In this document: positions 25,472-41,050 of the stretch, one piece after another
Numbering within the stretch: the first letter of the stretch is position 1
How the letters are laid out: the number at the start of each line of letters is the position of its first letter
Source of the DNA: Bacteroidaceae bacterium
Lineage (GTDB): Bacteria; Bacteroidota; Bacteroidia; Bacteroidales; Bacteroidaceae
DNA: 64,000 nucleotides
Reading direction: 5' to 3'
NCBI GenBank assembly: GCA_017470525.1
Contig: JAFUYM010000027.1
Location: forward strand, 1 to 64,000
Notes under the pieces: generated by a model
Told to the model about the DNA's origin: nothing
Database searches by the model: none
The model's input: the letters and a program-made list of their open reading frames with translations, nothing else
Made by a program: the position numbers and the translations under genes

Positions 25472-25474
25472 CGT

Positions 25475-26911: not shown

Positions 26912-26964
26912 TACAACGCATAACTGAGTCCTGCCTTCCATTCGTGGCTTTTGCCTGTGAGGGA
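26912..26964. repeat. Displaced copy of the DUF3943 gene 3' end (copy A)
   Basis: 53 bp identical to 28528-28580, which are the last 17 codons of the DUF3943 gene. It lies 13 bp beyond the stop codon of the DUF4143 ATPase gene. In this copy the frame ends with TAG instead of TAA. Together with copy B it brackets the ATPase gene as a direct repeat. Confidence 0.95.
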
Positions 26965-26977
26965 TTGCTGTCTTTGA

Positions 26978-28318
26978 CTATAAGAAAGTGGTCATGAACA
27001 TAGGCAAGAGTGTTGTCGCCTCGTCTTTTTTAAGGTCTTTAGTATAAATGAGATAACGGTTGCTGATACGTTCTGAGAACTTTAGACAGAATGCATCAAG
27101 GGAGGCATGAGTCTTATAGCCAGACGATTTCACCTCTATCGGCCAAATCTTACTGCCTCGTGAGAGCAGAAAGTCAACCTCATAGTTGTGGTTACTGTTT
27201 TCCATCTGCCACGTATGGTAGAAGAGTTTGTTTCCTGTTGCCGTAAGCATCTGGGCTACAATGTTCTCATAGACATAGCCGAGATTGGCGGAAAGTTTGT
27301 CGGAAAGCAGTTTCTGGTAGATGATGTTTTCCGTTACGTCCTTGTCCCAGAATGCAAGCGTGATAAACAACCCCGTGTCACCGACGAACATCTTATACTG
27401 GTCTTTGTTGCTGTTGAGTGCAAATCCTACATTGGGGTCATTGCTATGGTAGGAGAAGTTGACCACCATGCTGTCCTTCATGGCTCTTAGCACTTCTGAG
27501 AGATTTTTGCGTTCACTGTCTGAAAGGACGCTGCTCACCTGATAGCGCGATGCATTCTTGCTGAGTTCTGAGGGAATGGCCTGGAACAGTTGGGATGCAC
27601 GTCCCGAAGGATCAATTTTAAGGAAGTCGTCAAAGTATAGGTCTATAATCTCACGTTTTACCGTATCAACCCTGCTGAGATTGTTGGTGTCAAGGTATTC
27701 GTTTACAGCCTGTGGCATTCCGCCAACAAGCATATACAGCCGGAAATCACGCATCGATTTACGGAAAGCCTGTCCAAGTGGCATCTGCTTGTCGAAGAAC
27801 TGGCGGAGAAGAGGGATTGTAGCCTTGTCACCCAAAGCCCAACGGAATTCCTCGTAGTCCATCGGGAACATGTCGATACGGGTTTCTTCGCTTGGAATAA
27901 TGATTCCCTCTGTATTCTTGCGGATAGAGATAAGTGAACCTGTTTCTATATAGTCATAGCGATGGTCTTTCACAAGTTGTTTGATTGCCTGTCTTGCGAG
28001 AGGACATTTCTGAACCTCGTCGAAGATAATGACTGAACGACGCTCCTGAAGGATGACGTTATAAATAGCCTGCAGACGCAGGAAAATATAGTCAAGATCC
28101 ATCAGGTCGTTGAATAGTGATTTCACCTCTTCCGAAGTTCTTGAAAAATCAATGAGCATGTATGTTTCGTACTCTTGCCTGGCAAATTCTTCAACAATGG
28201 TGGACTTGCCTACTCGTCGGGCACCCTTGACCAGAAGTGCGGTCTTGCCGTCACGCTCCTGCTTCCATTGGAGCATTCGGTCGTATATCTTCCTTCTGAA
28301 AATCCTTGTATCTGACAT
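26978..28318 (-). CDS. AAA+ ATPase with DUF4143 C-terminal domain (COG1373 type), copy 1
   Basis: 446 residues from ATG 28318 (MSDTRIFRRKIYDR); a TTG further upstream is inside the promoter. Walker A is in LLVKGARRVGKSTIVEEF (about 30-47), Walker B in SVIIFDEVQKCP (about 99-110). The C-terminal DUF4143 part carries restriction-endonuclease-fold signatures YENIVAQML, NYEVDFLLSRG and WPIEVKSSGYKT (E, D, ExK). The family is abundant in Bacteroidetes and archaea; its function is not established. It has its own promoter overlapped by three 33-bp-spaced boxes. The gene is enclosed by direct copies of the neighbouring DUF3943 gene end, implying that it arrived as a unit. Confidence 0.9.
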   Translation of the reverse strand: MSDTRIFRRKIYDRMLQWKQERDGKTALLVKGARRVGKSTIVEEFARQEYETYMLIDFSRTSEEVKSLFNDLMDLDYIFLRLQAIYNVILQERRSVIIFDEVQKCPLARQAIKQLVKDHRYDYIETGSLISIRKNTEGIIIPSEETRIDMFPMDYEEFRWALGDKATIPLLRQFFDKQMPLGQAFRKSMRDFRLYMLVGGMPQAVNEYLDTNNLSRVDTVKREIIDLYFDDFLKIDPSGRASQLFQAIPSELSKNASRYQVSSVLSDSERKNLSEVLRAMKDSMVVNFSYHSNDPNVGFALNSNKDQYKMFVGDTGLFITLAFWDKDVTENIIYQKLLSDKLSANLGYVYENIVAQMLTATGNKLFYHTWQMENSNHNYEVDFLLSRGSKIWPIEVKSSGYKTHASLDAFCLKFSERISNRYLIYTKDLKKDEATTLLPMFMTTFL

Positions 28319-28339
28319 ATTATCTCTATGTTTTGAGTG

Positions 28340-28371
28340 CAAAATTAAGCACAATTTCCAGAATCCCCAAA
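28340..28371 (-). promoter_or_regulatory. Promoter of ATPase copy 1
   Basis: Minus-strand TAATTTTG at 28340-28347 and TTTG at 28368-28371, spacer 20 bp. The -33 box is inside the first of the repeated TTTGGGGATTnTGGAA boxes. Confidence 0.65.
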
Positions 28372-28442
28372 TTTTATTAGCGTGAATATTCCAAAATCCC
28401 CAATTTTAATTAGTTGTATAGTTCCAAAATCCCCAAATTCTA
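28356..28442. repeat. Three direct repeats with exact 33-bp period upstream of ATPase copy 1
   Basis: Plus-strand units start at 28356, 28389 and 28422 and share TTCCAnAATCCCCAA followed by an AT-rich stretch; read on the minus strand they are TTGGGGATTnTGGAA. Period 33 bp places them on one DNA face, and the first overlaps the -33 box, so an operator array is likely. Confidence 0.8.
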
Positions 28443-28526
28443 TCAACATACGGAACAAAGTTTTTTGTTTCTTTCTCAGCAGGTAGAGGAACGTTTTCTT
28501 GGAATAAGTGGCAGAGTTGTTTTATT

Positions 28527-30149
28527 TTACAACGCATAACTGAGTCCTGCCTTCCATTCGTGGCTTTTGCCTGTGAGGGAGGGGTATTGGCGGTAGTTGC
28601 CGTGGCGGAGGTTGAACTCGTGTTGGAGGTGGAGTTGGAGATTGCGGGCGATGTTGAATTGGAAGAAGAGGCGGTTTTGGAGAACGGTCTGTTCGCCTTT
28701 GTCGCCCCATGCGTTGATGCCGTCGCGCAGGTCTAACTCATGCCCTTCTGGGTCGTCGATGATTTGTTGCAGGGTTTCGGGGTTGGCGCTTTTCACGATG
28801 AAGAGGCGCAGGAGGTAGAATTGGTTTCCGAAGGTGATGTGACGGTTCCATGTGTACTGAAACTGGTGGCGCAGGGAGAAGCCTGTGCCGAAGTTGTAGC
28901 GGCGCATGGGAAAGTAGTCGGCTGCTGCACCTCCGAGAGGTACGGCTGAGAGTTGGAGGTCATGTTTGAGTGTGGTGGCAATGCCTTGCCGCTCGGCATG
29001 GAAACCTGCTCCGAAACTGGCTGCTTCGCTGATGACTGTCAGGTTGCCCGGGTCTTCGTGACCGTCGTAACTGTAGTGGTCGATGTATTTGATGTTCTGG
29101 TAGAAACCAATGTCGAGTTTCCAGCGGTGGGGCAACTGGCGTTGGATGGAGCCGATGCGTCCGCTGATGTCGAGTTCACCGACGGTGGGGTGGTCGGAAT
29201 CGAGATTGACGAGGGCGTAGATGTTGAAATAGTCGAAGGCGCGTGTTGCTTTGCCTTCGTCGAGGTTGTTGTAATGGTTGCCGTAGTTGAAGCGGATGTC
29301 GAAGAAGGGAATGTGCTCATGGTAGCGGTGCCCGATTTGCGGATGAATGGCACCGACATCGTGTATGTAGCGATCGCCGAATCCTATCTGGAAAGAGTAG
29401 GGTTCGGGCTCTTCTTTCTTGCCGGCATACAGATGATTAACGCGGAACATTTCTCCTGAAAGGATGCGATGAAGTCCGCGAACAGGGTTGAGGAAGGTGC
29501 CGATGATTTCGCACAGGACACGATTGGCTCCTGTCTTTGTGTTGTCGAAAAAGATGTCGGAAGCGCGATGGGTCACTTCGCCTATGGCAGCACCGCCGAT
29601 ACCTGTGGAGAGAAGGTCGTTGGTGGCTGGACGGTTGGTTTCGCAGAAGAGTTCCCACGTGAGGGAACCTGCCAGTGGGTAGAGGAGAGAGACACCATAG
29701 GAGAGTCCGTGCTCACGTGCGGCATTGTAGAACATGCTGCCATGATAGGGGTGTGCGAATTGGTTGCCCGAAAAACTGTCGTTGTCCCACACCCAACCGC
29801 CTGTGAGGTTCTGATGGAGGGTGGAGTTGGTGACACGTGCCCACTCGCGGTCGGTGACGAAGTGGTCCCAACTGAAGACGAGGGCATTGATGCCCAGATT
29901 CTCGACCATCGCTTGCAGGGCAGGCAGTTTGGGGGTTCCGTCGGCACGTTTCCCGAAGAAGTGGAGCGGGCAGGTGTAGGGGCTGAGGGTGTCGATGCGT
30001 TGCAGATGGGTGCGTGTGCCAGAGATGGAGTCATACCAGATGGAGTCGGGTTGCACAGCCTTGACCCCACCGCAGACCATGATTGCCAGCGTGAGCAACA
30101 GGATTCGCACCTTCCGTTTGGTGCAGTCTATCACCTCAGAAAAATTCAT
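28527..30149 (-). CDS. DUF3943 domain outer-membrane-associated protein
   Basis: 540 residues with an uncleaved-looking charged start then signal peptide KVRILLLTLAIMVCGGVKA. The DUF3943 region (about 75-230) is marked by NQFAHPYHGSMFYNAAREHG, LAGSLTWELFCE, GIGGAAIGEVTHRASDIFFD and NPVRGLHRIL. The remaining 300 residues alternate aromatic and polar residues and end HEWKAGLSYAL, as in small outer-membrane barrels. Function unknown. Its last 17 codons are duplicated 1.6 kb downstream, beyond the ATPase gene. Divergent from radA with overlapping promoters. Confidence 0.82.
   Translation of the reverse strand: MNFSEVIDCTKRKVRILLLTLAIMVCGGVKAVQPDSIWYDSISGTRTHLQRIDTLSPYTCPLHFFGKRADGTPKLPALQAMVENLGINALVFSWDHFVTDREWARVTNSTLHQNLTGGWVWDNDSFSGNQFAHPYHGSMFYNAAREHGLSYGVSLLYPLAGSLTWELFCETNRPATNDLLSTGIGGAAIGEVTHRASDIFFDNTKTGANRVLCEIIGTFLNPVRGLHRILSGEMFRVNHLYAGKKEEPEPYSFQIGFGDRYIHDVGAIHPQIGHRYHEHIPFFDIRFNYGNHYNNLDEGKATRAFDYFNIYALVNLDSDHPTVGELDISGRIGSIQRQLPHRWKLDIGFYQNIKYIDHYSYDGHEDPGNLTVISEAASFGAGFHAERQGIATTLKHDLQLSAVPLGGAAADYFPMRRYNFGTGFSLRHQFQYTWNRHITFGNQFYLLRLFIVKSANPETLQQIIDDPEGHELDLRDGINAWGDKGEQTVLQNRLFFQFNIARNLQLHLQHEFNLRHGNYRQYPSLTGKSHEWKAGLSYAL
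28528..28580. repeat. DUF3943 gene 3' end, copy B of the duplicated 53 bp
   Basis: In-place copy, coding for the last 17 residues (TGKSHEWKAGLSYAL region). Identical to 26912-26964; sequences outside the 53 bp are unrelated. Confidence 0.95.
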
Positions 30150-30177
30150 TTCTACCTTAAAATCAGATTTCTGGCTG

Positions 30178-30185
30178 CAAAGTTA
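30178..30185 (-). promoter_or_regulatory. -7 box (TAACTTTG) for the DUF3943 gene
   Basis: Minus-strand TAACTTTG, 29 bp before the start codon. The expected -33 position (about 30206) falls on the divergent radA -7 box. Confidence 0.55.
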
Positions 30186-30207
30186 GTTATTTTAGTTAGA
30201 AAATCAT

Positions 30208-30215
30208 TATCTTTG
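30208..30215 (+). promoter_or_regulatory. -7 box (TATCTTTG) for radA
   Basis: TATCTTTG, 18 nt before ATG 30234. The expected -33 position falls on the divergent DUF3943 -7 box. Confidence 0.55.
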
Positions 30216-30233
30216 TGGCAAAAAAGGAAAATA

Positions 30234-31637
30234 ATGGCGAAAGAAAAGATAGCATACGTTTGTAGTTCGTGTGGTTATGATAGTCCGAAATGGATTGGGA
30301 AATGCCCCGCATGTGGCGAGTGGAACACGTTTGTGGAACAAAAGTTGGGGAAGAAGAAAGCCTCGCTGGGGGTGCATGAGGAGTTCAGCCTAACCACGAA
30401 GTCAAGCCCCATCTCCATGTCGAAGATTCAGACGGAGGATGAACCCCGCATCAACATGAGGGACGGGGAACTGAACCGTGTGTTGGGTGGCGGCTTGGTG
30501 CCTGGCAGCATGACTTTGCTGGGTGGCGAACCTGGCATAGGCAAATCGACGTTGATTTTGCAGACGGTGTTGCGACTGAAGGGCATGCGGATTCTCTATG
30601 TGAGTGGTGAAGAGAGTGCGAGGCAGTTGAAGTTGAGGGCAGACAGGCTGGTGGAGAAATATGAGGATGGAGCGGCAAGCGAGGCTTTGGCGGATGTGCA
30701 GGTGGTGTGTGAAGCCATGATTGAAACTGTCTTTGAGCATGTGAAGGCTGTGGAGCCCGATATTTTGGTGGTGGATTCTATCCAGACGATGGCAACAGAG
30801 GCGGTGGAGTCATCGCCAGGCAGTGTGAGTCAGATACGTGAGTGTGCGGCGATGCTGCTGAAGTTTGCCAAAGAGACGAACACGCCTGTCATCCTCATCG
30901 GGCATATCAACAAGGAAGGCACGATTGCGGGTCCGAAGATTCTGGAGCACATGGTCGATACGGTGCTGCAGTTTGAGGGTGACCAGCACTATATGTACCG
31001 TATTGTCCGTGCGATAAAGAACCGCTTTGGCTCCACAGCGGAACTGGGCATCTATGAAATGGTTCACAATGGTCTTCGACCCGTGGAGAACCCTTCGGAA
31101 CTGCTCTTGAGTGACGTGAAGGATGGTGAGGAACTGAGTGGTGTGGCAGTAGCCTGTTCCATCGAGGGTGTGCGCCCCTTGCTCATTGAGACACAGGCAC
31201 TTGTCAGCACTGCTGCATACGGCACACCGCAACGCTCTGCCACGGGGTTTGACCTCCGACGGCTCAACATGCTCTTGGCGGTGCTGGAAAAGCGTGTGGG
31301 CTTCAAACTGCCCCAACGTGATGTGTATCTGAACATCGCGGGTGGAATCCGTGTGACCGACCCTGCCATCGACCTGAGTGTGATAGCGGCAGTGTTGTCG
31401 AGCAATGTAGATACGGGCATCGCAAGAGACATTTGCTTTGCTGGCGAGGTGGGACTGAGCGGCGAAGTGCGTCCCGTGAGCCGCATTGTGCAGCGCATTG
31501 CTGAGGCTGACAAACTGGGCTTCAGAAAAATCATCATCCCCCGTTCCAACATGAACGGAGTGGCTCAAGAGAAATTCAAAATTGAGATAGTGCCCGTTCG
31601 CAAAGTGGAAGAGGCTTTAAGGGAACTTTTCGGTTGA
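30234..31637 (+). CDS. radA: DNA repair protein RadA (Sms)
   Basis: 467 residues from ATG 30234; the open frame runs far upstream only because it is antisense to the DUF3943 gene. N-terminal zinc-finger CSSCGYDSPKWIGKCPACGEWN (Cys pairs at about 12/15 and 27/30), Walker A LLGGEPGIGKSTLI (about 100-113), Walker B DILVVDSIQTM (about 176-186), the RadA KNRFG motif (KNRFGSTAELGIY, about 262-274) and a C-terminal Lon-protease-like domain (QRDVYLNIAGGIRVTDP, FAGEVGLSGEVRPV). RadA is a hexameric helicase that promotes branch migration in recombination. The frame ends into a palindrome cluster that also ends the convergent plsC operon. Confidence 0.95.
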   Translation: MAKEKIAYVCSSCGYDSPKWIGKCPACGEWNTFVEQKLGKKKASLGVHEEFSLTTKSSPISMSKIQTEDEPRINMRDGELNRVLGGGLVPGSMTLLGGEPGIGKSTLILQTVLRLKGMRILYVSGEESARQLKLRADRLVEKYEDGAASEALADVQVVCEAMIETVFEHVKAVEPDILVVDSIQTMATEAVESSPGSVSQIRECAAMLLKFAKETNTPVILIGHINKEGTIAGPKILEHMVDTVLQFEGDQHYMYRIVRAIKNRFGSTAELGIYEMVHNGLRPVENPSELLLSDVKDGEELSGVAVACSIEGVRPLLIETQALVSTAAYGTPQRSATGFDLRRLNMLLAVLEKRVGFKLPQRDVYLNIAGGIRVTDPAIDLSVIAAVLSSNVDTGIARDICFAGEVGLSGEVRPVSRIVQRIAEADKLGFRKIIIPRSNMNGVAQEKFKIEIVPVRKVEEALRELFG

Positions 31638-31654
31638 GGCTCACAGCCTCTTTA

Positions 31655-31718
31655 TCGGACTGCTCCAGTCCGACATGCCGCACTGCTCCAGTCCGATGCA
31701 TCGGACTGGAGCAGTGCG
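31655..31718. terminator. Bidirectional terminator: perfect 40-nt palindrome plus nested hairpin
   Basis: 31679-31718 is a perfect palindrome of two 20-bp arms (CGCACTGCTCCAGTCCGATG and its complement). A related hairpin TCGGACTGCTCCAGTCCGA lies at 31655-31673, so the unit CTGCTCCAGTCCGA occurs twice direct and once inverted. A short stem GAGGCTCACAGCCTC precedes it. Located between the convergent radA and plsC genes. Confidence 0.8.
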
Positions 31719-31770
31719 ATTTTGTAGGTGTGGAAGGGGCAAATGTGGGAAGATTTCTGCCGTGCCTTTC

Positions 31771-32511
31771 TCAGTCACGGTATTTCTCATCCAGGCTGCC
31801 GTTGATGATATCGTACACTTCCTGCATGATGACTTTCGTCTGCTTGCCTTGGCGTTCTTCAGCCGTGATGGGTTTGTGGATGGTGAGGGTGACGGTGCCG
31901 AGGCTGACGGACTTAGCGTTGCGGCTGAACACGTCGAACGAGCCATTGATGGTCATGGGCACAATGGGGATTCCGATTTCGTTGGCAAGCATGAAGGAAC
32001 CACGCTTGAAAGGTCCCATCTTTCCGGTGCGGGTGCGGGTGCCTTCGGGGAAAATAATCATGGACATGCCCCCTTGCAGGGTCTCTCTTGCCTGTTGCAC
32101 TGCTTTGGCAATGCCGGAGATGCCGTCGGGGAGGTAGATGTGTTTGGACTTCACGCAGGCATAGCCGACGAAGGGAATCTTCTTCAGGTATTCCTTCATC
32201 ATCCATTTGAAGTTGTGTCCCAGATAGCCGTAGGCGAGAAAAATGTCGTAGTAGCCCTGATGGTTGGCAAGGAAAACGTAACTTTCGTCTTTCTTGATGT
32301 TCTCCCGACCTTCCACCTTCACCTTCAGGAGGAAGAGCCAGAAAGCGCACTTCGACCAGAACTTGGGCAGGTAGTATGCCACCACATCGGTGTCGCCAAG
32401 AAAGCCTGCAATGATGACACTCGAAGCGACAAAAATGGTGATGACCACAAAGATGGGGAGAGCGATGCAGAAAGAGTAAATCTTGTATAAAATGTTGAGA
32501 AATGTTTTCAT
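31771..32511 (-). CDS. plsC: 1-acyl-sn-glycerol-3-phosphate acyltransferase
   Basis: 246 residues. One N-terminal hydrophobic stretch (ALPIFVVITIFVASSVIIAG). Acyltransferase motif I is NHQGYYDIF (HxxxxD, about residues 83-91) and motif III IIFPEGTRTRTGKMGPFKRG (about 137-156); PIVPMTINGSFDV matches motif IV. It adds the second acyl chain to lysophosphatidate in phospholipid synthesis at the inner membrane. Last gene of a minus-strand run; 21 bp separate it from the phosphoesterase gene upstream. Confidence 0.9.
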   Translation of the reverse strand: MKTFLNILYKIYSFCIALPIFVVITIFVASSVIIAGFLGDTDVVAYYLPKFWSKCAFWLFLLKVKVEGRENIKKDESYVFLANHQGYYDIFLAYGYLGHNFKWMMKEYLKKIPFVGYACVKSKHIYLPDGISGIAKAVQQARETLQGGMSMIIFPEGTRTRTGKMGPFKRGSFMLANEIGIPIVPMTINGSFDVFSRNAKSVSLGTVTLTIHKPITAEERQGKQTKVIMQEVYDIINGSLDEKYRD

Positions 32512-32532
32512 TGTTCTGATGAATATGTTGGG

Positions 32533-33765
32533 TTATGGATTGGATGCTGGTGACGGAAGCGAGGGGGTGCGTCGGAGGGTGATGACGTTGACCTCAGGCC
32601 ATGCGCCGAAGCGGAAGGGGAACATCACGGCTCCGATGCCATCGCTTACGTTGAGAATCTGATTGCCCTCGGTGTAGGCCCCCGACCATTCTTGATAGAC
32701 GAAAGCAACTGGCGACCAGCCAAACACTTTGAACTGTCCGGCATGGGTGTGACCCGAAAGGGTGAGTTGGATGCTGCTTTGAGGAAGAATCTTGCGTCGC
32801 CAATGTGTAGGGTCGTGGCTCATCAGCACCGTGAAGCAAGAGCGTTTCAATCCCTTCATCGTCTTGGGCAGGTCGCCAAGAGAAGGCCAAGGCGGGTTGC
32901 CATCGTTTTCCACACCTGCAATGATGAGGGAGTCCTTGCCACGGCGGAGCACACGGTGGTCGTTGAGCAGTAAGGTCCAGCCATAACTGCGGATGCGGCG
33001 TTGCAGTTCAAGCACATCTGCCTCGCGGTCTTTCTCGTCGGGGTAATCCAGATACATGCTATAGTCGTGGTTGCCCATCACGGCATAAACACCGTCGGGG
33101 GCATGAAGTTTATTGAGGTCGCGACGGAAACCGTCAAGTTCGGCACTCTGGTGGTTGACGAGGTCGCCTGTGAAGAGGATGGCATCGCACTGCTGGGCAT
33201 TGATGAGGTCAACAATCGTCCGTGCATCTGCCTCATTTCCATCGCGCAAGGTGCCGATGTGCATGTCTGAGAAATGGGCAATGCGATAGCCGTCGAACCG
33301 TTTGGGCAGGTCGGGGAAGAAGAAAGTCTGCTGATGAACCACATAGTGATGCCGCCCGATGAAGTAGCCGAAACAAAGCAGCCCGATGGAGAAAAGGGCG
33401 AGCGCCATGCCGATGATGCGGAAAATGCGCACGAAGATACAGTCGTAGCCTTCGCGCGTCTTGGCACCACCTGTGACCATCCAGTTGATGCCTTGCCCGA
33501 TGCCGTCCATGAGCATGAACAAGGCTTTGGGAGCACAACAGGCAAGAAAGGCAAACATGAAGATGCTGACCCAAGGCTGGTGTTCTGGCTTCATGTCGTT
33601 GCTGCTGATGATGACTGCCGCTGCGATGGCAAGGAGCAAAGAAGGCATCCACCACAAGGCACGTAGCCACCATTGCTTTGTCCAACGGCGTATGTACATT
33701 ATATATATATACGTGTCGGGCAACACCAGCAGGAGGACAATCAGTAAGAGTATTCTTAGCAGCAT
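32533..33765 (-). CDS. Membrane-anchored calcineurin-like metallophosphoesterase (YkuE-like)
   Basis: 410 residues with N-terminal helices (LLRILLLIVLLLVLPDTYIYI; WMPSLLLAIAAAVII; VSIFMFAFLACCAPKALFML; IIGMALALFSIGLLCFGYFIG) followed by a metallophosphoesterase domain. Metal ligands: AHFSDMHIGT (about 165), FTGDLVNHQ (about 203), VMGNHDYSMY (about 234), LMSHDPTHW and LSGHTHAGQFKVFG (about 340). YkuE-type proteins cleave UDP-sugars or phosphoesters at the membrane face; the substrate here is unknown. Probably in the same operon as plsC. Confidence 0.87.
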   Translation of the reverse strand: MLLRILLLIVLLLVLPDTYIYIMYIRRWTKQWWLRALWWMPSLLLAIAAAVIISSNDMKPEHQPWVSIFMFAFLACCAPKALFMLMDGIGQGINWMVTGGAKTREGYDCIFVRIFRIIGMALALFSIGLLCFGYFIGRHHYVVHQQTFFFPDLPKRFDGYRIAHFSDMHIGTLRDGNEADARTIVDLINAQQCDAILFTGDLVNHQSAELDGFRRDLNKLHAPDGVYAVMGNHDYSMYLDYPDEKDREADVLELQRRIRSYGWTLLLNDHRVLRRGKDSLIIAGVENDGNPPWPSLGDLPKTMKGLKRSCFTVLMSHDPTHWRRKILPQSSIQLTLSGHTHAGQFKVFGWSPVAFVYQEWSGAYTEGNQILNVSDGIGAVMFPFRFGAWPEVNVITLRRTPSLPSPASNP

Positions 33766-33839
33766 AGGCTATTGACAGTTGACAATGGATAATTGACAGT
33801 TTGTTTATGAGTTCGGAATTATGAATTGTAAATTGTGAA

Positions 33840-34679
33840 TTATGAATTGGGTATGTAGGGACGGAGTTCTTCGGGTGTCATGTGACGCCGTTGTGCATAG
33901 TCGGCGAGTTGTTCTTCCCCGATTTTCCCTACGGCAAAGTAATGCGCCTGTGGCAGGCTGAGCATGAATCCGCTCACAGAGGCATGGGGCTGCATCATGG
34001 CGTGTTCCGTCAGTGTCACCCCGATGCTTTTCAGCCCGATGAGTTCGTCGATGAGACGATTGATGGAGATGTCGGGCAGGCAAGGATAACCCACTGCGGG
34101 TCGGATGCCTTGAAACCTCTCCTGGTGCAGTTCCTCTATGGTCAATTGCTCGTCGGGAGCATAGCCCCAGATGGTTTTCCTCACCTCTTCGTGCAGTCGT
34201 TCCGCTCCTGCCTCAGCCAGTCGGTCGGCAAGGGTCTGAAGGAGCATCCGATTGTAGTCGTCGTTGGGAAACGTCTTTTCCACATCGATGCTGGTGGAGG
34301 TGGCAAAAACACCGATTCGGTCTTGTCTTATTGACGATTGCGGACGGATGAAGTCGCTCAGGCAGAGGCAAGTTCCATCTTTCCCTGGTGTCTGCTGGCG
34401 CAACATGGGAATGCGTATCGGGTCTCCTTGAGGATGGCGTTGCCCACACTCGCAGGGATAGGTCTTCTGCACCACAATGTCGTCGCCGTCGCTCCATGCC
34501 GGCAGTATCTCCACCACAGTCTTCACCACCACATAAGGTCGCATTTGCCGCAACATCTTCTCTGCCTCTTCGTACAGGCGCTGCCCCTCTTCCGATTGTC
34601 TTGGCAATGACCATGCATGGAAGAAATAGACCCAGTTGATGTAGGGCGACAGGTCGCTGATCCGATAGTTTCTTCGCAC
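33840..34679 (-). CDS. Free-standing methionine synthase activation-domain protein
   Basis: 279 residues resembling the C-terminal S-adenosylmethionine-dependent reactivation domain of MetH: RRNYRISDLSPYINWVYFFHAW, DRLAEAGAERLHEEVRKTIWGY split here to AERLHEEVRKTIWGYAPDE, the GIRPAVGYPCLPD motif (about 190-202) and EHAMMQPHASVSGF. In Bacteroidetes the reactivation domain is often a separate protein acting on a MetH lacking it. The start is a GTG; in-frame sequence before it (VSFYNQQFS) also looks coding-like but no ATG is present before the stop. It lies 51 bp downstream of pyrC. Confidence 0.83.
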   Translation of the reverse strand: MRRNYRISDLSPYINWVYFFHAWSLPRQSEEGQRLYEEAEKMLRQMRPYVVVKTVVEILPAWSDGDDIVVQKTYPCECGQRHPQGDPIRIPMLRQQTPGKDGTCLCLSDFIRPQSSIRQDRIGVFATSTSIDVEKTFPNDDYNRMLLQTLADRLAEAGAERLHEEVRKTIWGYAPDEQLTIEELHQERFQGIRPAVGYPCLPDISINRLIDELIGLKSIGVTLTEHAMMQPHASVSGFMLSLPQAHYFAVGKIGEEQLADYAQRRHMTPEELRPYIPNS

Positions 34680-34710
34680 GCTGAACTGCTGATTATAAAA
34701 TGATACTTTG

Positions 34711-34751
34711 TTACAGATTAAACCTCAACTTACAGACTATTAAACCTCAAC
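34711..34751. repeat. Tandem duplication spanning the pyrC stop codon
   Basis: Units 34730-34751 (22 bp) and 34711-34729 (19 bp) are the same sequence except for a 3-bp deletion; on the minus strand both begin GTTGAGGTTTAAT and end CTGTAA. The first unit encodes the last residues of PyrC, the second lies just after its stop. Confidence 0.75.
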
Positions 34752-36073
34752 TCTTTTCCTCTGATGCCATCCACCACCACTCCGTCGCTGTAGGCAGTGA
34801 TGCCATTGACGAGGGTGCGACGCACTCTCCACTTGAAGAATCGTTCGTCCATCGGTGTCCAGCCGCATTTGGTATAATATCGCCCTTCTCTCACTTGCCA
34901 GTTCCCCTCGGGGTCAACAAGTGCTAAGTCGGCATAGTAGCCTGGACGGATGAAACCGCGCTTTTCGATTCTGAACAGTTTGGCAGGATTGTGCGACATC
35001 AAGTCGGGAATGCGCTCAATGGGCAAGACGCCCATCTCATACAATTCCAGCATCGACACCAGCGAGAACTGAATCATCGGCATGCCCGATGCGGCTTTCA
35101 GCGCCCCGCCAATCTTCTCATTCTCCAGATGGGGCGCATGGTCAGTTGCCACTACGTCAATCAGCCCGTTGGTCAGAGCCTCGCGCAAGGCGGCACGGTC
35201 TTCTGGCGTTTTGATGGCAGGATTGCATTTGATGCGTGTTCCCAACGTGTCATAATCCTCGGTGGTGAACATCAGGTGGGCAATCACCACTTCGGCGGTG
35301 ATTTTCTTTTCCTCAATGGGCTTCTTCTCGAACAGTTCCAGTTCTTTGGCTGTCGAAACATGGGCAATATGCAACCGTGCCCCCGTCTCCTTCGCCATCT
35401 GCACCGCTAATGCAGAAGATTCGTAGCATGCCTCCACACTGCGGATGCGGGAATGGTAGCGGACGGGGAAATCGTTCTGCCCCTTATATCGTTTCTTGAA
35501 TGCACGGATATTGGCATTGATGATGCCAGTGTCTTCACAATGCGCCATGAGCAAAAGAGGGGATGTCGCGAAGATGCGGCGCAACGATTCTTCGCGGTCC
35601 ACGAGCATGTTGCCCGTGCTGCTGCCCATAAACACCTTTACGCCCGGCACACGTTGGCGGTCCAGCCGTTGCAGCGTGTCGGCATTGTCGTTGGTGGCAC
35701 CAAAGTAGAAGGAATAGTTCACGCGGCTGTCTTGTGCCGCCCGTTGGAACTTGTCTTCCAGCAGTTCGATGGTGGTGGTGGGAGGCAAAGTGTTGGGCAT
35801 TTCCATGTAGGAAGTGACGCCACCTGCCGCTGCCGTGCGGCTTTCGCTGGCAATGTCAGCCTTGTGGGTCATTCCTGGCTCGCGGAAATGCACGTGGTCA
35901 TCAATCACACCCGGGAATAGGTACAAGCCAGTTGCATCAATCTCAAGGTCGTAAGTTTGAGTGGAGTCATCTCCCTCCAGCACCTGCTGAATCATCTCAT
36001 CTTCTATCACCACAGAACCTACAAACTTGTGCCCCTCATTCACGATTATCGCATTTCTGATGATTGTTCTCAT
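34730..36073 (-). CDS. pyrC: Dihydroorotase (class I type)
   Basis: 447 residues, the length of bacterial class I dihydroorotases. Metal-binding DDHVHFREPGMTHK (about residues 57-70); later ligands in LMAHCEDTG (about 177-185), LHIAHVSTAKE (about 232-242) and catalytic Asp in DVVATDHAPHLENEK (about 305-319). It converts N-carbamoyl-aspartate to dihydroorotate in pyrimidine synthesis. It follows the glycosyltransferase gene by 17 bp and precedes the MetH-activation gene, so the neighbours appear to be an operon of convenience rather than pathway. Confidence 0.93.
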   Translation of the reverse strand: MRTIIRNAIIVNEGHKFVGSVVIEDEMIQQVLEGDDSTQTYDLEIDATGLYLFPGVIDDHVHFREPGMTHKADIASESRTAAAGGVTSYMEMPNTLPPTTTIELLEDKFQRAAQDSRVNYSFYFGATNDNADTLQRLDRQRVPGVKVFMGSSTGNMLVDREESLRRIFATSPLLLMAHCEDTGIINANIRAFKKRYKGQNDFPVRYHSRIRSVEACYESSALAVQMAKETGARLHIAHVSTAKELELFEKKPIEEKKITAEVVIAHLMFTTEDYDTLGTRIKCNPAIKTPEDRAALREALTNGLIDVVATDHAPHLENEKIGGALKAASGMPMIQFSLVSMLELYEMGVLPIERIPDLMSHNPAKLFRIEKRGFIRPGYYADLALVDPEGNWQVREGRYYTKCGWTPMDERFFKWRVRRTLVNGITAYSDGVVVDGIRGKELRFNSL

Positions 36074-36090
36074 AGGTTAATCTTAGGTCG

Positions 36091-36879
36091 TCAGTTTTCT
36101 TTCTTTGGAAGCACATGTTCGGAAGACTTCTCATCTATGGGCTTGGGGTATTTCTTGAACCATCCGTCCCATCTCAGTCGCATCACACCAAAGAACGCTT
36201 CACCGAAAATACCGCTGTTCATCTTCGAAACGCCTTCCACGCGGTTGACGAAAATGACTGGCACCTCTTTGATTTTGAAGCCGCACTTGTAGGTGGTGAA
36301 CTTCATCTCTATCTGGAACGCATACCCCTTGAAGCGGATGCTGTCAAGGTCAATGGTCTCCAGCACACGCCGTTTGTAACACTTGAAGCCTGCTGTGGTG
36401 TCGTGTACCTTGAAGCCCGTGACAAACCTCACATACTTTGAAGCGAAATACGACATCAGCACTCTACCCATCGGCCAGTTGACTACGTTCACGCCAGAGA
36501 TGTAGCGGCTGCCGATGGCAAGGTCGTACCCCTCGTCGGCACAAGCAGCATAAAGTCGAGGCAGGTCACTGGGCGCATGCGAAAAGTCTGCATCCATCTC
36601 GAAGATGTAGTCATAGCCATGTGAAAGCCCCCATTTGAATCCCGTGATGTAGGCAGTGCCCAGCCCCAATTTGCCCGAACGTTCCAACAGGAAGAGGCGG
36701 TCGGCAAATTCTGTCTGCATCAGTCCTTTGACAATGGCTGCCGTTCCGTCGGGCGAACCGTCGTCAATCACGAGGATGTGGAAACATTTTTCCAGTGCGA
36801 ACACCGCTCTGATGATTTTTTCAATGTTCTCCTTCTCGTTATAGGTCGGTATGATAACTATGCTGTCGCTTCCGTTCAT
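36091..36879 (-). CDS. Polyprenol-phosphate mannosyltransferase-like GT2 (DPM1 type)
   Basis: 262 residues, no membrane helices. GT2 fold: IVIIPTYNEKENIEKII (about 7-23), VIDDGSPDGTAAIV (about 37-50), and the metal/donor motif FEMDADFSHAPSDLPRL (about 92-108). GSRYISGVNVVNWPMGR and the C-terminal FKGYAFQIEMKFTTYKCGFKIKEVP segment, cut to GYAFQIEMKF here, are typical of DPM1-like enzymes that move mannose or glucose from a nucleotide sugar to a polyprenyl phosphate. First gene of the minus-strand operon with a clear promoter. Confidence 0.9.
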   Translation of the reverse strand: MNGSDSIVIIPTYNEKENIEKIIRAVFALEKCFHILVIDDGSPDGTAAIVKGLMQTEFADRLFLLERSGKLGLGTAYITGFKWGLSHGYDYIFEMDADFSHAPSDLPRLYAACADEGYDLAIGSRYISGVNVVNWPMGRVLMSYFASKYVRFVTGFKVHDTTAGFKCYKRRVLETIDLDSIRFKGYAFQIEMKFTTYKCGFKIKEVPVIFVNRVEGVSKMNSGIFGEAFFGVMRLRWDGWFKKYPKPIDEKSSEHVLPKKEN

Positions 36880-36906
36880 GTGCGATGTTGTTTAGTCTTT
36901 CTTTTG

Positions 36907-36937
36907 CAAAGTTAGCACAAACCGACCATACCTCAAA
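36907..36937 (-). promoter_or_regulatory. Sigma-ABfr-type promoter of the GT2-pyrC operon
   Basis: Minus-strand TAACTTTG at 36907-36914, spacer 19 bp, TTTG at 36934-36937. Confidence 0.6.
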
Positions 36938-37084
36938 ATAAAAGTTCTTTTTTTTTGTTAAAGAGGGAGAAAAAGTTGGTGGTGAGGTGCGAGGTGTGAG
37001 GTGTGAGCGGTTGAGAGTGGGTGTCGTTTCAGCCTCGTCCGGTGTGTGTCATTCCTCCGTGCGGCCTTACGTTTCATCACGGCA

Positions 37085-37292
37085 GATGACGAGTGACAGG
37101 CGGAGGAGATGACGAGTGACAGACGGAGGAGACGGCGGGTGACGGACGGAGGAGATGGCGAGTGAGAGACAGAGCAAGATGCGAGTGAGCGTTTGAAGTG
37201 GATGCAGGTGAGAGACGGTGGACGATGCGAGCGGGCGACTTCGGTGGATGCGAGTGGTCGTTGTCAATGGATGTGAGTGTGCGTTCTGTGGA
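37085..37292. repeat. Degenerate 23-bp tandem repeat, nine copies
   Basis: GATG-headed units start at 37085, 37108, 37131, 37154, 37178, 37201, 37224, 37247 and 37270. The first four are close (GATGACGAGTGACAGRCGGA), the later ones diverge but keep the period and the GATGnGAGTG head. G/A-rich on the plus strand. 23 is not a multiple of three and no frame is open throughout, so it is non-coding. It fills part of the 36880-37560 gap, which otherwise holds GAGGTGT-type short reiterations and the ino1 promoter. Confidence 0.85.
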
Positions 37293-37406
37293 AAGATGGG
37301 GAAGCGCGTGAAAAAAAGGGGATAAATATCAGCCCATTCCCTTTCAAAGTCGGTTAAACATTGTTAAAAGTGGTAGGTGGAACATAAAAGGGGAGTTTCC
37401 GATAAG

Positions 37407-37435
37407 TTGTTTTCATACGATTTTGACTAACTTTG
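37407..37435 (+). promoter_or_regulatory. Sigma-ABfr-type promoter for ino1
   Basis: TTG at 37407-37409, 18-bp spacer, TAACTTTG at 37428-37435; leader of about 120 nt to ATG 37561. Confidence 0.55.
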
Positions 37436-37560
37436 CAACCGATTTTTGACTTCTTTATCAAAGACATAACGGGAGAAAGCCAAGTTTACTTGTGCTGCTT
37501 TTTGGTGTGTCAAATAGAATGGAAAAGCAATTAAGGATATAATTTTCAAGATATTACAAA

Positions 37561-38889
37561 ATGGAAAATCAAAATGTGAAACCTGCTGAAGGTCGGTTGG
37601 GCATCATGGTCGTAGGACTGGGTGCCGTCACATCCACCTTCATGACAGGTGTGTTGATGGCTCGCAAGGGACTTGCCAAGCCTGTGGGGTCAATGACTCA
37701 GTATGACAAAATTCGTGTCGGCAAGGGTGCTGACAAGAAGTATCTCTCTTATTCAGAAATCGTTCCAATGGCAAAATTGGATGACATCGTGTTCGGAGCA
37801 TGGGACGTTTATCCTGCCAATGCATTCCAAAGCGCGATGTATGCACAGGTGCTGCAAGAGAAGGACATCCTGCCTGTACAGGACGAACTGGAGAAGATTG
37901 TTCCGATGAAGGCTGCGTTTGACAAGAACTTTGCCAAGCGACTCGATGGCAACAACGTAAAAGACTGCAAGACCCGTTGGGAAATGGTGGAGCAACTTCG
38001 TGAAGACATCCGTAAGTTCAAGGCAGACAACAACTGCTCACGCATCGTGGTGGCATGGGCGGCATCAACAGAGATTTATGTGAAGCCCAACATGGAGGTG
38101 CACGACACGCTCGCTCACCTCGAAGCGGCTATGAAGGCAAACGACACGGTGAACATCGCTCCTTCCATGTGCTATGCGTATGCAGCGTTGGCTGAGGGTG
38201 CTCCTTTCATCATGGGTGCTCCTAACACTACCGTCGATATTCCTGCCATGTGGGAAATGTCTGAGAAACAGGGTCTGCCCATTGCAGGTAAGGACTTCAA
38301 GACAGGTCAGACACTGGTGAAGTCAGGTTTCGCCCCCATCATCGGCACTCGTTGCCTCGGTCTGAACGGCTGGTTCTCAACGAATATTCTTGGCAACCGC
38401 GATGGTCTCGTGCTTGACGAGCCAGCCAACTTCCGCACGAAGGAGGTTTCGAAACTCTCTACTCTGGAGACGATTCTGAAGCCTGAAACGCAGCCCGACC
38501 TCTATGGTCACGGCAACGACGAGGACACGCAGTACTACCACAAGGTGCGCATCAACTACTATCCTCCACGCAACGACAACAAGGAGGGTTGGGACAACAT
38601 CGACATCTTCGGCTGGATGAACTACCCCATGCAGATTAAGATTAACTTCCTCTGCCGCGACTCCATCCTCGCCGCTCCGCTGTTGCTCGACCTCTGTCTG
38701 CTCAGCGACCTCGCTGCACGTGCTGGCAAGAGCGGTATCCAGCGTTTCCTCTCCTTCTTCCTCAAGGCTCCTATGCACGACTATATGCAGGGCGAGGAAC
38801 CTGTCAACCACCTCTTCCAGCAATACACCATGCTGAAGAACGCCATCCGCGAGATGGGCGGTTACGAGGCAGACGAGGAAATCGACTAA
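37561..38889 (+). CDS. ino1: myo-Inositol-1-phosphate (inositol-3-phosphate) synthase
   Basis: 442 residues, typical for bacterial MIPS. NAD-binding GLGAVTSTFMTGVLMARKG (about 20-38), VAWAASTEIYVKPN (about 164-177), active-site GTRCLGLNGWFSTNILGNRD shortened to NGWFSTNILGNRDG (about 268-281), and KINFLCRDSILAAPLLLDLC shortened to CRDSILAAPLLLDL near residue 375. It cyclises glucose-6-phosphate to inositol-phosphate; in Bacteroides this feeds inositol lipids. The expected CDP-alcohol transferase and phosphatase partners are not in this window. The final 24 bp and following 36 bp are duplicated at 40412-40471, with a DUF4143 ATPase gene in between. Highly biased codon use. Confidence 0.93.
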   Translation: MENQNVKPAEGRLGIMVVGLGAVTSTFMTGVLMARKGLAKPVGSMTQYDKIRVGKGADKKYLSYSEIVPMAKLDDIVFGAWDVYPANAFQSAMYAQVLQEKDILPVQDELEKIVPMKAAFDKNFAKRLDGNNVKDCKTRWEMVEQLREDIRKFKADNNCSRIVVAWAASTEIYVKPNMEVHDTLAHLEAAMKANDTVNIAPSMCYAYAALAEGAPFIMGAPNTTVDIPAMWEMSEKQGLPIAGKDFKTGQTLVKSGFAPIIGTRCLGLNGWFSTNILGNRDGLVLDEPANFRTKEVSKLSTLETILKPETQPDLYGHGNDEDTQYYHKVRINYYPPRNDNKEGWDNIDIFGWMNYPMQIKINFLCRDSILAAPLLLDLCLLSDLAARAGKSGIQRFLSFFLKAPMHDYMQGEEPVNHLFQQYTMLKNAIREMGGYEADEEID

Positions 38890-38925
38890 CCAACCCACGC
38901 GCTGGGCGATTTTCTCTACTGACAA
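38866..38925. repeat. ino1 3' end, in-place copy of the duplicated 60 bp
   Basis: Covers the last seven codons of ino1, its stop and 36 bp beyond. It matches 40412-40471 at 55 of 60 positions; the differences lie after the stop codon, and sequence outside both copies is unrelated. Confidence 0.93.
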
Positions 38926-38980
38926 GATTTTTGCCACGGATTGAGCCGATTGCTCGGATTTTTAGATATTATTTTGATTT

Positions 38981-39032
38981 AGAGGGATTTCACAGATAAG
39001 CGTAACGGCTTTCTAATCTGTGAAATCCCTCT
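38981..39032. terminator. Hairpin between ino1 and ATPase copy 2
   Basis: Perfect 17-bp stem: 38981-38997 (AGAGGGATTTCACAGAT) pairs with 39016-39032, 18-nt loop. It lies inside the inserted unit, between the convergent genes. Confidence 0.75.
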
Positions 39033-39084
39033 GAATTGTAAGAACTCTTGAAAAACTACGAAGCAGTCTAATGATCGTATGGGA

Positions 39085-40254
39085 TTAAAAGAGTTCTGAT
39101 ATATGCTTATAGTTGAACAACTTAATGTCTGCAGCCGCATTTTCCATGTTGCCAGCATAGATGATGGCCTTTGTTCCCGTCGGTTCCTTGATATATGTGT
39201 CCAGTTTGCTGATGGTTTTCTGAAAGTCTGTGCTATAAGTCATGGATGATTTGATTTCAAAACCATTCAAAATGCCATTCTCTTTGGTGAGCAAGTCTAT
39301 CTCATTCTTGTTTGAGTCACGATAGAAGTACATGTTGCTTTTCTTCCCTCGGTTGAAACGCATCTTCAAAGCCTCCATTACTATCAGGTTTTCGAACAAA
39401 TGCCCACGCATCTTGTCATGAGAGAGTTGGGTGGGAGATTCAATGTCAAGCAGATGGCAGGCTAATCCCGTGTCGCAGAAATAGAGTTTGGGAGACTTGA
39501 TAAGTCTTTTGGCGGCATTCCCGGAATAGGGGTGTAGTAGGGTGATGACATAGGAGGCTTCAAGGATGGAGAGCCACGAAGTGATGGTGTTGGATGATAC
39601 TCCCACCTCGTTTGCCAATTCCGAGGCATTAAACACACTACCAATTCTTCCTGCGCACAATTGCAGAAAAGTGTTGAACTGCATCATGTCTTTCACATTG
39701 ACCATCTCTCTCACATCACGGTCAAGGTAAGTTCTCACATACGATGGATAGTAAAGATGGGCAACATTCTTTTGAGCACAAATGGACGGGTACAGACCAT
39801 CAAACAGTAATTCGTCAAGACTTTTCCTTTCTACCATCTCCTGCGTTTCTGCCATTGACATGGGTAGCAGGTCAAACATGCCGACACGTCCAGCCAATGA
39901 TTGTGACACACTACGTATCAACGCAAAATTAGAACTTCCCGAAAGAATGAATTTCCTTTCGGGGTGGTCATCTACGATGCCTTGAATATATGACAGCAAT
40001 TCGGGCACCCTATGTACCTCATCCAGAACCATTCCCTTTTCTGTCTGATTCAGAAAAGCCACAGGGTCATTTTTAGCATAGTTTCTGACATCAAGGTCTT
40101 CCAATGTGTACCTGACAAAATTGGGGAACAGGTGCTTGATGAGCGTACTTTTCCCCGACTGTCTCGGTCCCGTGATACACACCACGGGAAAATATTTCGC
40201 AGCCTCCAGAATAGTAGCCGAGATACTTCTCTCTATATATTCGCCCTCTTTCAT
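39085..40254 (-). CDS. AAA+ ATPase with DUF4143 C-terminal domain (COG1373 type), copy 2
   Basis: 389 residues from ATG 40254. Walker A in VVCITGPRQSGKSTLIKHL (about 23-41), Walker B in GMVLDEVHRVPELLSYIQ (about 73-90), sensor-like FILSGSSNF (about 102-110). In DUF4143, LYFCDTGLACHLL is followed by ENLIVMEALKMRF, NEIDLLTKENG and GFEIKSSMTYS, which supply the E, D, ExK of a PD-(D/E)xK fold. Distinct in sequence from copy 1, so not a recent duplicate. Opposite in orientation to ino1, whose 3' end brackets it as direct repeats. Confidence 0.9.
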   Translation of the reverse strand: MKEGEYIERSISATILEAAKYFPVVCITGPRQSGKSTLIKHLFPNFVRYTLEDLDVRNYAKNDPVAFLNQTEKGMVLDEVHRVPELLSYIQGIVDDHPERKFILSGSSNFALIRSVSQSLAGRVGMFDLLPMSMAETQEMVERKSLDELLFDGLYPSICAQKNVAHLYYPSYVRTYLDRDVREMVNVKDMMQFNTFLQLCAGRIGSVFNASELANEVGVSSNTITSWLSILEASYVITLLHPYSGNAAKRLIKSPKLYFCDTGLACHLLDIESPTQLSHDKMRGHLFENLIVMEALKMRFNRGKKSNMYFYRDSNKNEIDLLTKENGILNGFEIKSSMTYSTDFQKTISKLDTYIKEPTGTKAIIYAGNMENAAADIKLFNYKHISELF

Positions 40255-40258
40255 TTTA

Positions 40259-40311
40259 TGCAAATTTGAAATTCAATTGCAAATTTACATAAAATAATGA
40301 AGGTGAACAAA
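40259..40311 (-). promoter_or_regulatory. Promoter of ATPase copy 2 with paired TGCAAATTT boxes
   Basis: Minus-strand TAAATTTG at 40280-40287, spacer 20 bp, TTTG at 40308-40311. On the plus strand TGCAAATTT occurs at 40259-40267 and 40278-40286, 19 bp apart, one overlapping the -7 box and one just before the start codon; likely autoregulatory boxes. Confidence 0.6.
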
Positions 40312-40411
40312 TAAAAAATGGATAAAATTGTTTTGAAGTATTTTTTCATTCGCTTGGTTCCCCTCCAACAGAGTGTCATGCAGAAAAACTCATCTACGAG
40401 AAGGGAACTTT

Positions 40412-40471
40412 GAGGCAGACGAGGAAATCGACTAACCGACCCACGCGCTGGGCGAATTATTCCACTGACAA
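40412..40471. repeat. Displaced copy of the ino1 3' end
   Basis: Codes for the same final residues and stop as ino1 but has no gene attached. It ends 8 bp before the hairpin of the next gene, consistent with this having been the original downstream flank of ino1. Confidence 0.93.
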
Positions 40472-40478
40472 CAAGGAA

Positions 40479-40537
40479 ACATATACAAAGAAGAGAGAGG
40501 GGCACGATTCGCGTCCCTCTCTCTTCTTTGTATATGT
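40479..40537 (-). terminator. Strong terminator hairpin for the ExbB-like gene
   Basis: Perfect 23-bp stem, 40479-40501 with 40515-40537, 13-nt loop, 14 bp after the stop codon of the minus-strand gene. Confidence 0.8.
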
Positions 40538-40551
40538 GCCAGTCACAAGTT

Positions 40552-40875
40552 CTATATTCTTGGTGTCTGGCATATCTTTATGATACGAGATACGGCATAG
40601 ATGATAAGCCCGTAGCAAGGAGAGATAAGCATACATTTGATACCTCCACAAAGTACTGACGTTGCAATATCGCCAGCCTTCTGTATATCGTCACAAGCCT
40701 GATATGCACCAAGCCCAGTGAACAGGATTCCTAAGACTAATGCGATATTGCCGATATCGCACACCCAAGCGGGTGCTTTCCATGCGGCAAGGAACAGAAG
40801 GGCGAGCAAAAGGGTGAGGATGGACATGAACATCATGTTGCCCTCAAGAAACAAATCTGAAAGTTGTGTAATCAT
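40552..40875 (-). CDS. Miniature MotA/TolQ/ExbB-like membrane protein
   Basis: 107 residues with three hydrophobic segments: FMSILTLLLALLFLAAW, DIGNIALVLGILFTGLGAY and CYGLIIYAVSRIIKI. The last two plus the link AGDIATSVLCGGIKCMLISP echo the ExbB/TolQ signature in which a helix is followed by GDxxPSxLAxGIxxALxTTxxGL. The cytoplasmic loop and N-terminal part of full-length ExbB (about 200 or more residues) are missing. No ExbD-like partner is adjacent. Own -7 box upstream and a strong terminator downstream, so monocistronic. Assignment by pattern only. Confidence 0.6.
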   Translation of the reverse strand: MITQLSDLFLEGNMMFMSILTLLLALLFLAAWKAPAWVCDIGNIALVLGILFTGLGAYQACDDIQKAGDIATSVLCGGIKCMLISPCYGLIIYAVSRIIKICQTPRI

Positions 40876-40924
40876 AACTCACTTTTTTTAATGTTAAACA
40901 CTCTTGTTGTTGCAGTTGCTGGTA

Positions 40925-40932
40925 CAAAGGTA
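40925..40932 (-). promoter_or_regulatory. -7 box (TACCTTTG) for the ExbB-like gene
   Basis: Minus-strand TACCTTTG, 49 bp before the start codon; no convincing -33 box. Confidence 0.5.
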
Positions 40933-41050
40933 CGGAGATATTGGCAACCAACCTATTTATTTGTCTGTCAAAACCCTCCATTGGCAGGTTGAATCCCCCT
41001 ATATCGGGATTTTTCCTTTCAACAATGGCTTTCGCATGTAGAAAAAGGTG

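Follow-up and report, generated by a model that had tools for sequence, protein, structure and literature searches.

Solitary DUF4143 ATPase genes between direct repeats of their target sites in Bacteroidaceae: a tentative case for homology-guided import of single genes

The stretch of DNA analysed here (the window: 64,000 nt, positions 1 to 64,000 of contig JAFUYM010000027.1, assembly GCA_017470525.1, from a Bacteroidaceae bacterium) contains two genes for DUF4143 ATPases, units 1 and 2. Each is an insert of about 1.5 kb between two partial copies of the edge of a neighbouring gene, here called the host gene. We tentatively read each unit, with somewhat less than even confidence, as a solitary accessory gene inserted at or near a host-gene edge by homology-guided import of the gene together with a fragment of another allele of the site. 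This explanation is narrowly favoured over a true duplication of the target. The pattern suggests that such genes can travel alone, not inside a transposon.

Both ATPase genes are bracketed by direct repeats of a host-gene end, as the first-pass annotation of the window had proposed (53 bp at 100% identity in unit 1, 60 bp at 92% in unit 2; Table 1). The repeat of unit 1 consists of the last 53 nt of the coding sequence of its DUF3943 host, minus the final base. That of unit 2 (38866-38925 and 40412-40471) comprises the last 24 nt of the host coding sequence and 36 nt downstream, and can be extended to 97 bp at 82% identity with gaps. Relative to the host gene, the ATPase gene has the same orientation in unit 1 and the opposed one in unit 2. 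Only one other direct pair below 1e-10 within 20 kb was found in the window (505 bp, at 60010 and 62793, 73% identity). The architecture ascribed to both proteins, AAA+ plus DUF4143, was confirmed by Pfam as AAA_14 and DUF4143 domains. E-x-D ... E-x-K residues are readable in both translations (NEIDLL...FEIKSS and YEVDFL...IEVKSS) and presumably represent the PD-(D/E)xK motif; they are invariant in a DUF4143 alignment of three sequences. No solved structure is close to either protein by sequence (best E 0.78 and 0.023). Within the two units no mobility gene was seen, the list of open reading frames (ORFs) showing one gene of size in each and no integrase.

The expectation that flanking repeats would be enriched around other DUF4143 genes was upheld within the genus. 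Long flanking direct repeats occur at 26 of 120 DUF4143 genes among the matches listed (16/62 + 10/58, both window genes counted) and at 3 of 348 control ORFs (2/311 + 1/37; Fisher p 9e-14). The uniform test compared up to 800 bp from the two sides of the gene by blastn at E<1e-12 and was applied to 120 stretches from 40 of 45 same-genus genomes, a sample that leans to higher scores. From 131 matches (69 + 62), 11 were dropped as shorter than 250 aa or within 400 bp of a stretch end; among these at least L340 has an 84-bp pair around its gene (L and G numbers are our own, for loci and genomes). Pairs enclosing several genes (L081, L118, L349, L369 and L371) come from open scans and are counted in the 26 only if the single-gene test found them too. 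Most of the genomes are in many contigs, and gene calls are longest open frames. The controls were other ORFs of 250-600 aa from the same stretches, many of them core genes. The three that were repeat-flanked are an AbiH gene (L083), a gene without Pfam match (L085) and a Sel1-repeat gene (L371); the L085 gene we take for part of a tandem array, judging from loci L086 and L087.

Repeats of the 26 units measure 51-299 bp, with a median of 85 (automatic measure). The genome of the window has six DUF4143 matches, five of them above the family cut-off, and a third DUF4143 gene, located on a different contig, is likewise bracketed by repeats (79 bp, 95%). When the window was scanned openly together with the first 60 stretches (976 kb, chosen around DUF4143), 32 long direct pairs emerged, of which 18 enclose one or more DUF4143 genes. 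Beyond the genus, with a threshold of E<1e-10, flanked genes numbered 4 of 23 examined at the family level (26 new loci) and 4 of 28 at the phylum level (29 loci). Among the phylum-level cases L194 and L195 carry nearly the same repeat and are probably one insertion, and the repeat of L187 is a 41-bp palindrome. The latter, present on both sides of the DUF4143 gene (L187:941-981 and 2186-2226), resembles by eye the palindrome of unit 2.

The proposal that these units target the 3' ends of genes was not borne out. With unit 1 corrected by hand, the 26 sites comprise 12 intergenic positions, 7 gene ends, 5 gene starts and 2 internal ones; with automatic ORFs the same counts are 13/6/5/2 if the left copy is kept and 13/5/5/3 if the right one is. 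Random segments (n=4840) fell in intergenic positions in 14.0%, at ends in 8.3%, at starts in 5.0% and inside genes in 72.7% of cases, and the proportion of ends to starts among the target sites does not differ from the random one (p 0.73). The sites do avoid gene interiors, an avoidance that selection alone would give. No similarity was detected among the 26 repeat sequences at E 1e-3. Being mutually unlike, the repeats are part of the targets rather than of an element, and were treated as 26 separate targets. Shared unit ends or conserved terminal sequences were not seen by eye in 20 DUF4143 junction pairs, and unit 2 and a 78%-identical gene of G029 align only from the palindrome to the ORF end, not in their surroundings. 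This is not what a transposon with terminal sequences would show.

Some repeats have an identical core, 7 of the 26 sites (one by hand) are gene ends, and the target in L116 is itself the end of a phage-integrase-family gene; all three would fit a tyrosine recombinase acting in trans, with the repeats as att sites of identical core and diverged arms. However, repeats of 51-299 bp with longest perfect runs of 12-221 bp, unrelated targets with no core site shared among the 26 units, and window units without an integrase make this explanation very improbable.

Nor is the pattern a class built on DUF4143 alone, as had been supposed. Fic genes were flanked in 4 of 28 cases examined (30 fetched), a rate that exceeds the general control (p 7e-4) and cannot be told from that of DUF4143 (p 0.45). 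Of AlbA_2 genes 1 of 26 examined (30 fetched) was flanked at E<1e-12 (p 0.05 vs DUF4143), with two weaker cases (2e-12 and 5e-9). These family controls, of 26-28 genes each, are fairer than the 348 but small. Besides Fic, single repeat-flanked cases are AbiH, AlbA_2, the Sel1-repeat gene and, in the window's own genome (L069:1737-2669), a nucleotidyltransferase and HepT-like gene between direct repeats identical at 103 of 103 positions, presumably a HEPN-MNT toxin-antitoxin pair. PDDEXK_3 genes were flanked in 7 of 28 cases examined (30 fetched); their repeats were set apart after inspection, as several abound in CACGAATT-type words and two have sequence in common. Were they counted as the same class, DUF4143 would be still less special. 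The cases in question include L257, L261, L243, L251 and L263, with direct repeats of 110-296 bp, several of them CACGAATT- or CACAGATT-rich and that of L257 like that of L261. Such repeat-boxed genes are possibly a separate single-gene unit with ends of its own.

These counts bear on the idea of self-driven spread in a homing-like cycle, in which the nuclease-like domain of the DUF4143 protein would cut empty sites and repair would copy the unit in. At 26/120 the family has the highest rate among tested families with target-specific repeats, and the motif residues are invariant in the small alignment. Against this stand the Fic rate and the other unrelated genes that are also flanked; 26 unrelated target sequences argue against a sequence-specific cutter, and shared ends were missing by eye. 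We therefore regard self-driven spread as unlikely, and the results lend no support to a role of the nuclease-like domain in insertion. Less probable again is a minimal self-homing defence gene, in which the ATPase-nuclease would open gene-edge sites in cells without it, repair from incoming DNA would install the gene and a duplicated edge, and Fic and other solitary genes would ride the same breaks. If this were true, a defence candidate among the most common in prokaryotes would also serve as the enzyme of its own mobility.

Empty sites were found for two of the four units given a search of their own. For unit 2, the loci L047 and L048 of genomes G016 and G028 join 38525-38925 to 40412-41000 with exactly 60 bp in common; L042 and L044 agree with the empty site over a shorter length, which gives 4 of 29 relatives' loci in total. 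In the remaining ones the sequence behind the inositol-phosphate synthase gene is unlike the right flank of unit 2 over 120 bp. The L094 unit, which was picked because its target looked conserved, has a 177-bp repeat at the start of a peptidase U32 gene; this is present as a single copy in the sister genome G004 (L397), where both flanks are continuous. For unit 1 the sequence behind the host gene has diverged in relatives, so its empty site could not be read, and a search with the L104 target gave no usable empty site among relatives.

The origin of the two repeat copies is the point on which homology-guided import and true target duplication differ. In the latter, insertion would be accompanied by long duplication of one target sequence, and a spare copy that then decays is expected to give mismatches at all codon positions, with a mild excess at position 3 contributed by the working copy (0.436 by hand estimate). 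In host ORFs of at least 150 aa, mismatches between copies number 36/29/79 at positions 1/2/3, so that 79 of 144 (55%) fall at position 3 (p 9e-8 vs one third, 0.004 vs 0.436). This pool includes one Fic unit, extra-genus units and the double unit of L081; the cases are unlike, and the length limit matters. DUF4143 units of the genus alone give 18/18/43 (43/79 at position 3; p 9e-5 and 0.03, respectively). The bias is strong in L083 (start of a radical SAM gene, 8/9), L094 (7/9), L116 (10/16) and L394 (5/7). That a spare piece of 20-35 codons has been selected as a protein is improbable, so in the biased cases the divergence probably predates the arrangement. In 5 of 22 units, moreover, the perfect core exceeds the length expected by chance (p<0.05), with a combined p of 4e-4.

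Comparison with empty alleles gave opposite results in two units. In L094, relative to the allele of G004, the spare copy has 6 differences in 177 positions and the copy in the working gene 11; changes number 8 in the host copy and 3 in the spare one, which target duplication with decay of the spare would not predict. Flank identity to G004 in this unit, the only one in which one-sided donor homology was examined, is about 83% on the left and about 93% on the right. In unit 2, relative to L047, five changes lie in the redundant copy and none in the host copy, in line with target duplication. The view that the two copies are different alleles is supported in some units only.

Several results weigh against homology-guided import. 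Host ORFs below 150 aa, left out above as less likely to be real genes, show no bias (15 of 51 mismatches at position 3), and with all rows pooled 94 of 195 fall there (p 1e-5 vs one third, p 0.11 vs 0.436); the codon signal is hence carried by some units only. It is missing in unit 2 (2/4/2), L075 and L115. The mismatch-position clustering test, which points in the same direction as the cores (p 5e-6), counts all gap columns, so that L339 and L355 inflate it. The flank contrast in L094 could reflect genes evolving at different speeds. Repeats of unit 1 (53/53), L073 (51/51), L341 (250/251) and the HepT unit (103/103) are identical or nearly so, and would agree just as well with a recently duplicated target. 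Repeats were absent from all 10 loci taken from other collections (E<1e-10), and a donor molecule was not found. The identity of copies in several units and the single-copy empty sites of unit 2 and L094 are likewise what a duplicated target would give. Inserts of restriction-modification genes have been described as arising by long target duplication, and to our knowledge no enzyme is known for it. Weighing these points against the strong position-3 bias of four units, the long perfect cores and the altered host copy of L094, we consider true target duplication a serious possibility, if still a doubtful one.

Under the favoured homology-guided import, the incoming DNA would consist of the solitary gene and a short piece of the host site as found in a related allele. 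This piece would recombine with the resident copy, by which the gene would be added and the site become present twice. With the repeats in place, the gene could be lost precisely or move on to the corresponding site of a second strain, and new sites would be reached by rare illegitimate joining. Spread by homology-assisted recombination, one of the options raised at the outset, thereby gains moderate support from the flank and allele differences, the codon bias and the long perfect cores, and is weakened where copies are identical.

A trace of movement may be seen in L081 (G028), where two DUF4143 genes lie together inside one repeat (103 bp, 97%). The second gene is accompanied by 48 bp from the beginning of a radical SAM gene, and the start of that radical SAM gene serves as target for a 77%-identical relative of the second gene in L083 (G030); judging from this one case, the piece may be a remnant of a former site that was carried along. 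The protein has relatives in 372 records of plasmids and 8 of faecal phages, which makes such vehicles possible; in the one phage record tested of the eight, flanking repeats were absent.

The closest published pattern is insertion with long target duplication, reportedly described by Nobusato et al. (2000) for restriction-modification genes of Helicobacter pylori. As far as the accounts of such inserts go (PMC1643837, PMC3031569), the shared features are a gene-sized insert, an uninterrupted relative, long direct repeats and defence-type cargo. Our cases differ in that the cargo is a single ATPase, Fic, AbiH or other gene in the window's genus, that some copies look like diverged alleles, and that a rate is given against controls. 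Homology-facilitated illegitimate recombination, in the parts of the sources concerned with it (PMC3240628; PMC5361080), has in common with the present units one homologous anchor, added foreign DNA and a relic of the old gene; this combination is outlined for type VI secretion system (T6SS) immunity gene arrays (PMC5361080). In contrast, our units contain solitary genes at many unrelated sites with short overlap and are known from sequence alone. Free-standing homing endonucleases, and fungal mitochondrial elements by which a gene end is duplicated, resemble our units in that a nuclease gene adjoins a gene end present twice, whereas here the targets are unrelated, unrelated cargo occurs too, and the nuclease-like domain is predicted.

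Both window proteins match the PADLOC candidate PDC-S01 (E 4.8e-97 and 8.8e-95) and are thus candidate anti-phage genes. PDC-S01 is summarised in its source as an ATPase fused to a member of the PD-(D/E)xK superfamily and as the fourth most common defence across prokaryotes, with validation pending for most PDCs; the portions of that source dealing with it give no account of how the genes insert (PMC12988326). In a limited search, the literature on DUF4143, COG1373 and PDC-S01, as represented by the sections available, contained no description of a repeat-flanked single-gene pattern. How an element-free single gene reaches a new place is likewise left aside in those sections. With a scar of repeats left at roughly one in five of the copies examined in the genus, arrivals and losses would become readable, and scanning for the scar rather than for known families could reveal other mobile single genes.

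Regulatory sequences of the units are less uniform than their repeats. A promoter with repeated boxes had been proposed for both; the boxes were confirmed for unit 1, which has three of 22 nt, and not for unit 2, which has a 41-nt palindrome instead. The upstream-box pattern was found 5 times forward and 2 times reverse in 65 upstream regions, compared with 6 and 4 in 396, and conserved boxes were set aside as a weak mark of the family. The strict palindrome pattern occurs in unit 2 only (1/131 DUF4143 genes; 0/902 other ORFs).

Table 1 Features of the two DUF4143 units and their host genes in the window
Feature	Position	Strand	Basis
Unit 1 outer repeat copy, second copy of DUF3943 gene end	26912..26964		53/53 identical to 28528-28580
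Unit 1 gene, AAA_14 + DUF4143, PADLOC candidate PDC-S01	26978..28318	-	Pfam (longer ORF to 28354); PDLC04786, E 8.8e-95
Three 22-nt boxes spaced 33 nt, upstream of unit 1 gene	28356..28443		Repeat family in window scan
Unit 1 host repeat copy, end of DUF3943 coding sequence	28528..28580		ORF end at 28527
Unit 1 host gene, DUF3943 protein	28527..30149	-	PF13084, E 1.3e-31
Unit 2 host gene, myo-inositol-1-phosphate synthase	37561..38889	+	PF07994, E 1.1e-101
Unit 2 host repeat copy (core 38866-38925)	38829..38925		Repeat scan and flank comparison
Unit 2 sequence missing from empty sites of G016 and G028	38926..40411		Comparison with relatives
24-nt inverted repeat, terminator-like by look, now behind unit 2 host gene	38977..39036		Inverted-repeat scan
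Unit 2 gene, AAA_14 + DUF4143, PADLOC candidate PDC-S01	39085..40254	-	Pfam (longer ORF to 40263); PDLC04790, E 4.8e-97
41-nt palindrome at unit 2 start codon, operator-like by look	40254..40294		Read from sequence; short matches to it in further genomes of the family
Unit 2 outer repeat copy, 92% over the outer 60 bp, with a strongly diverged inner part	40377..40471		Repeat scan and alignment
Hairpin after the single copy in the empty site (L047), now displaced behind unit 2 insert	40479..40537		Inverted-repeat scan

Unit 1 adjoins a restriction-modification pair (23717-26191), an EcoO109I-like restriction enzyme and a C5 methylase, around which no flanking repeat was detected at E 0.01. Upstream of the inositol-phosphate synthase gene there are four tandem 23-nt repeats (37084-37175). 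At 38885-38916 the unit 2 repeat includes, after the stop codon of the host gene, a dispersed motif (CTAACCAACCCACGCGCTGGGCGATTTT) found at many places in many genomes of the genus. Elsewhere, a PDDEXK_4 gene (PADLOC PDC-S26; L349:959-2296) directly adjoins a DUF4143 unit, and a PDDEXK_3 gene (L107:6480-7088) forms a 0.6-kb unit with 74-bp repeats at 96% identity.

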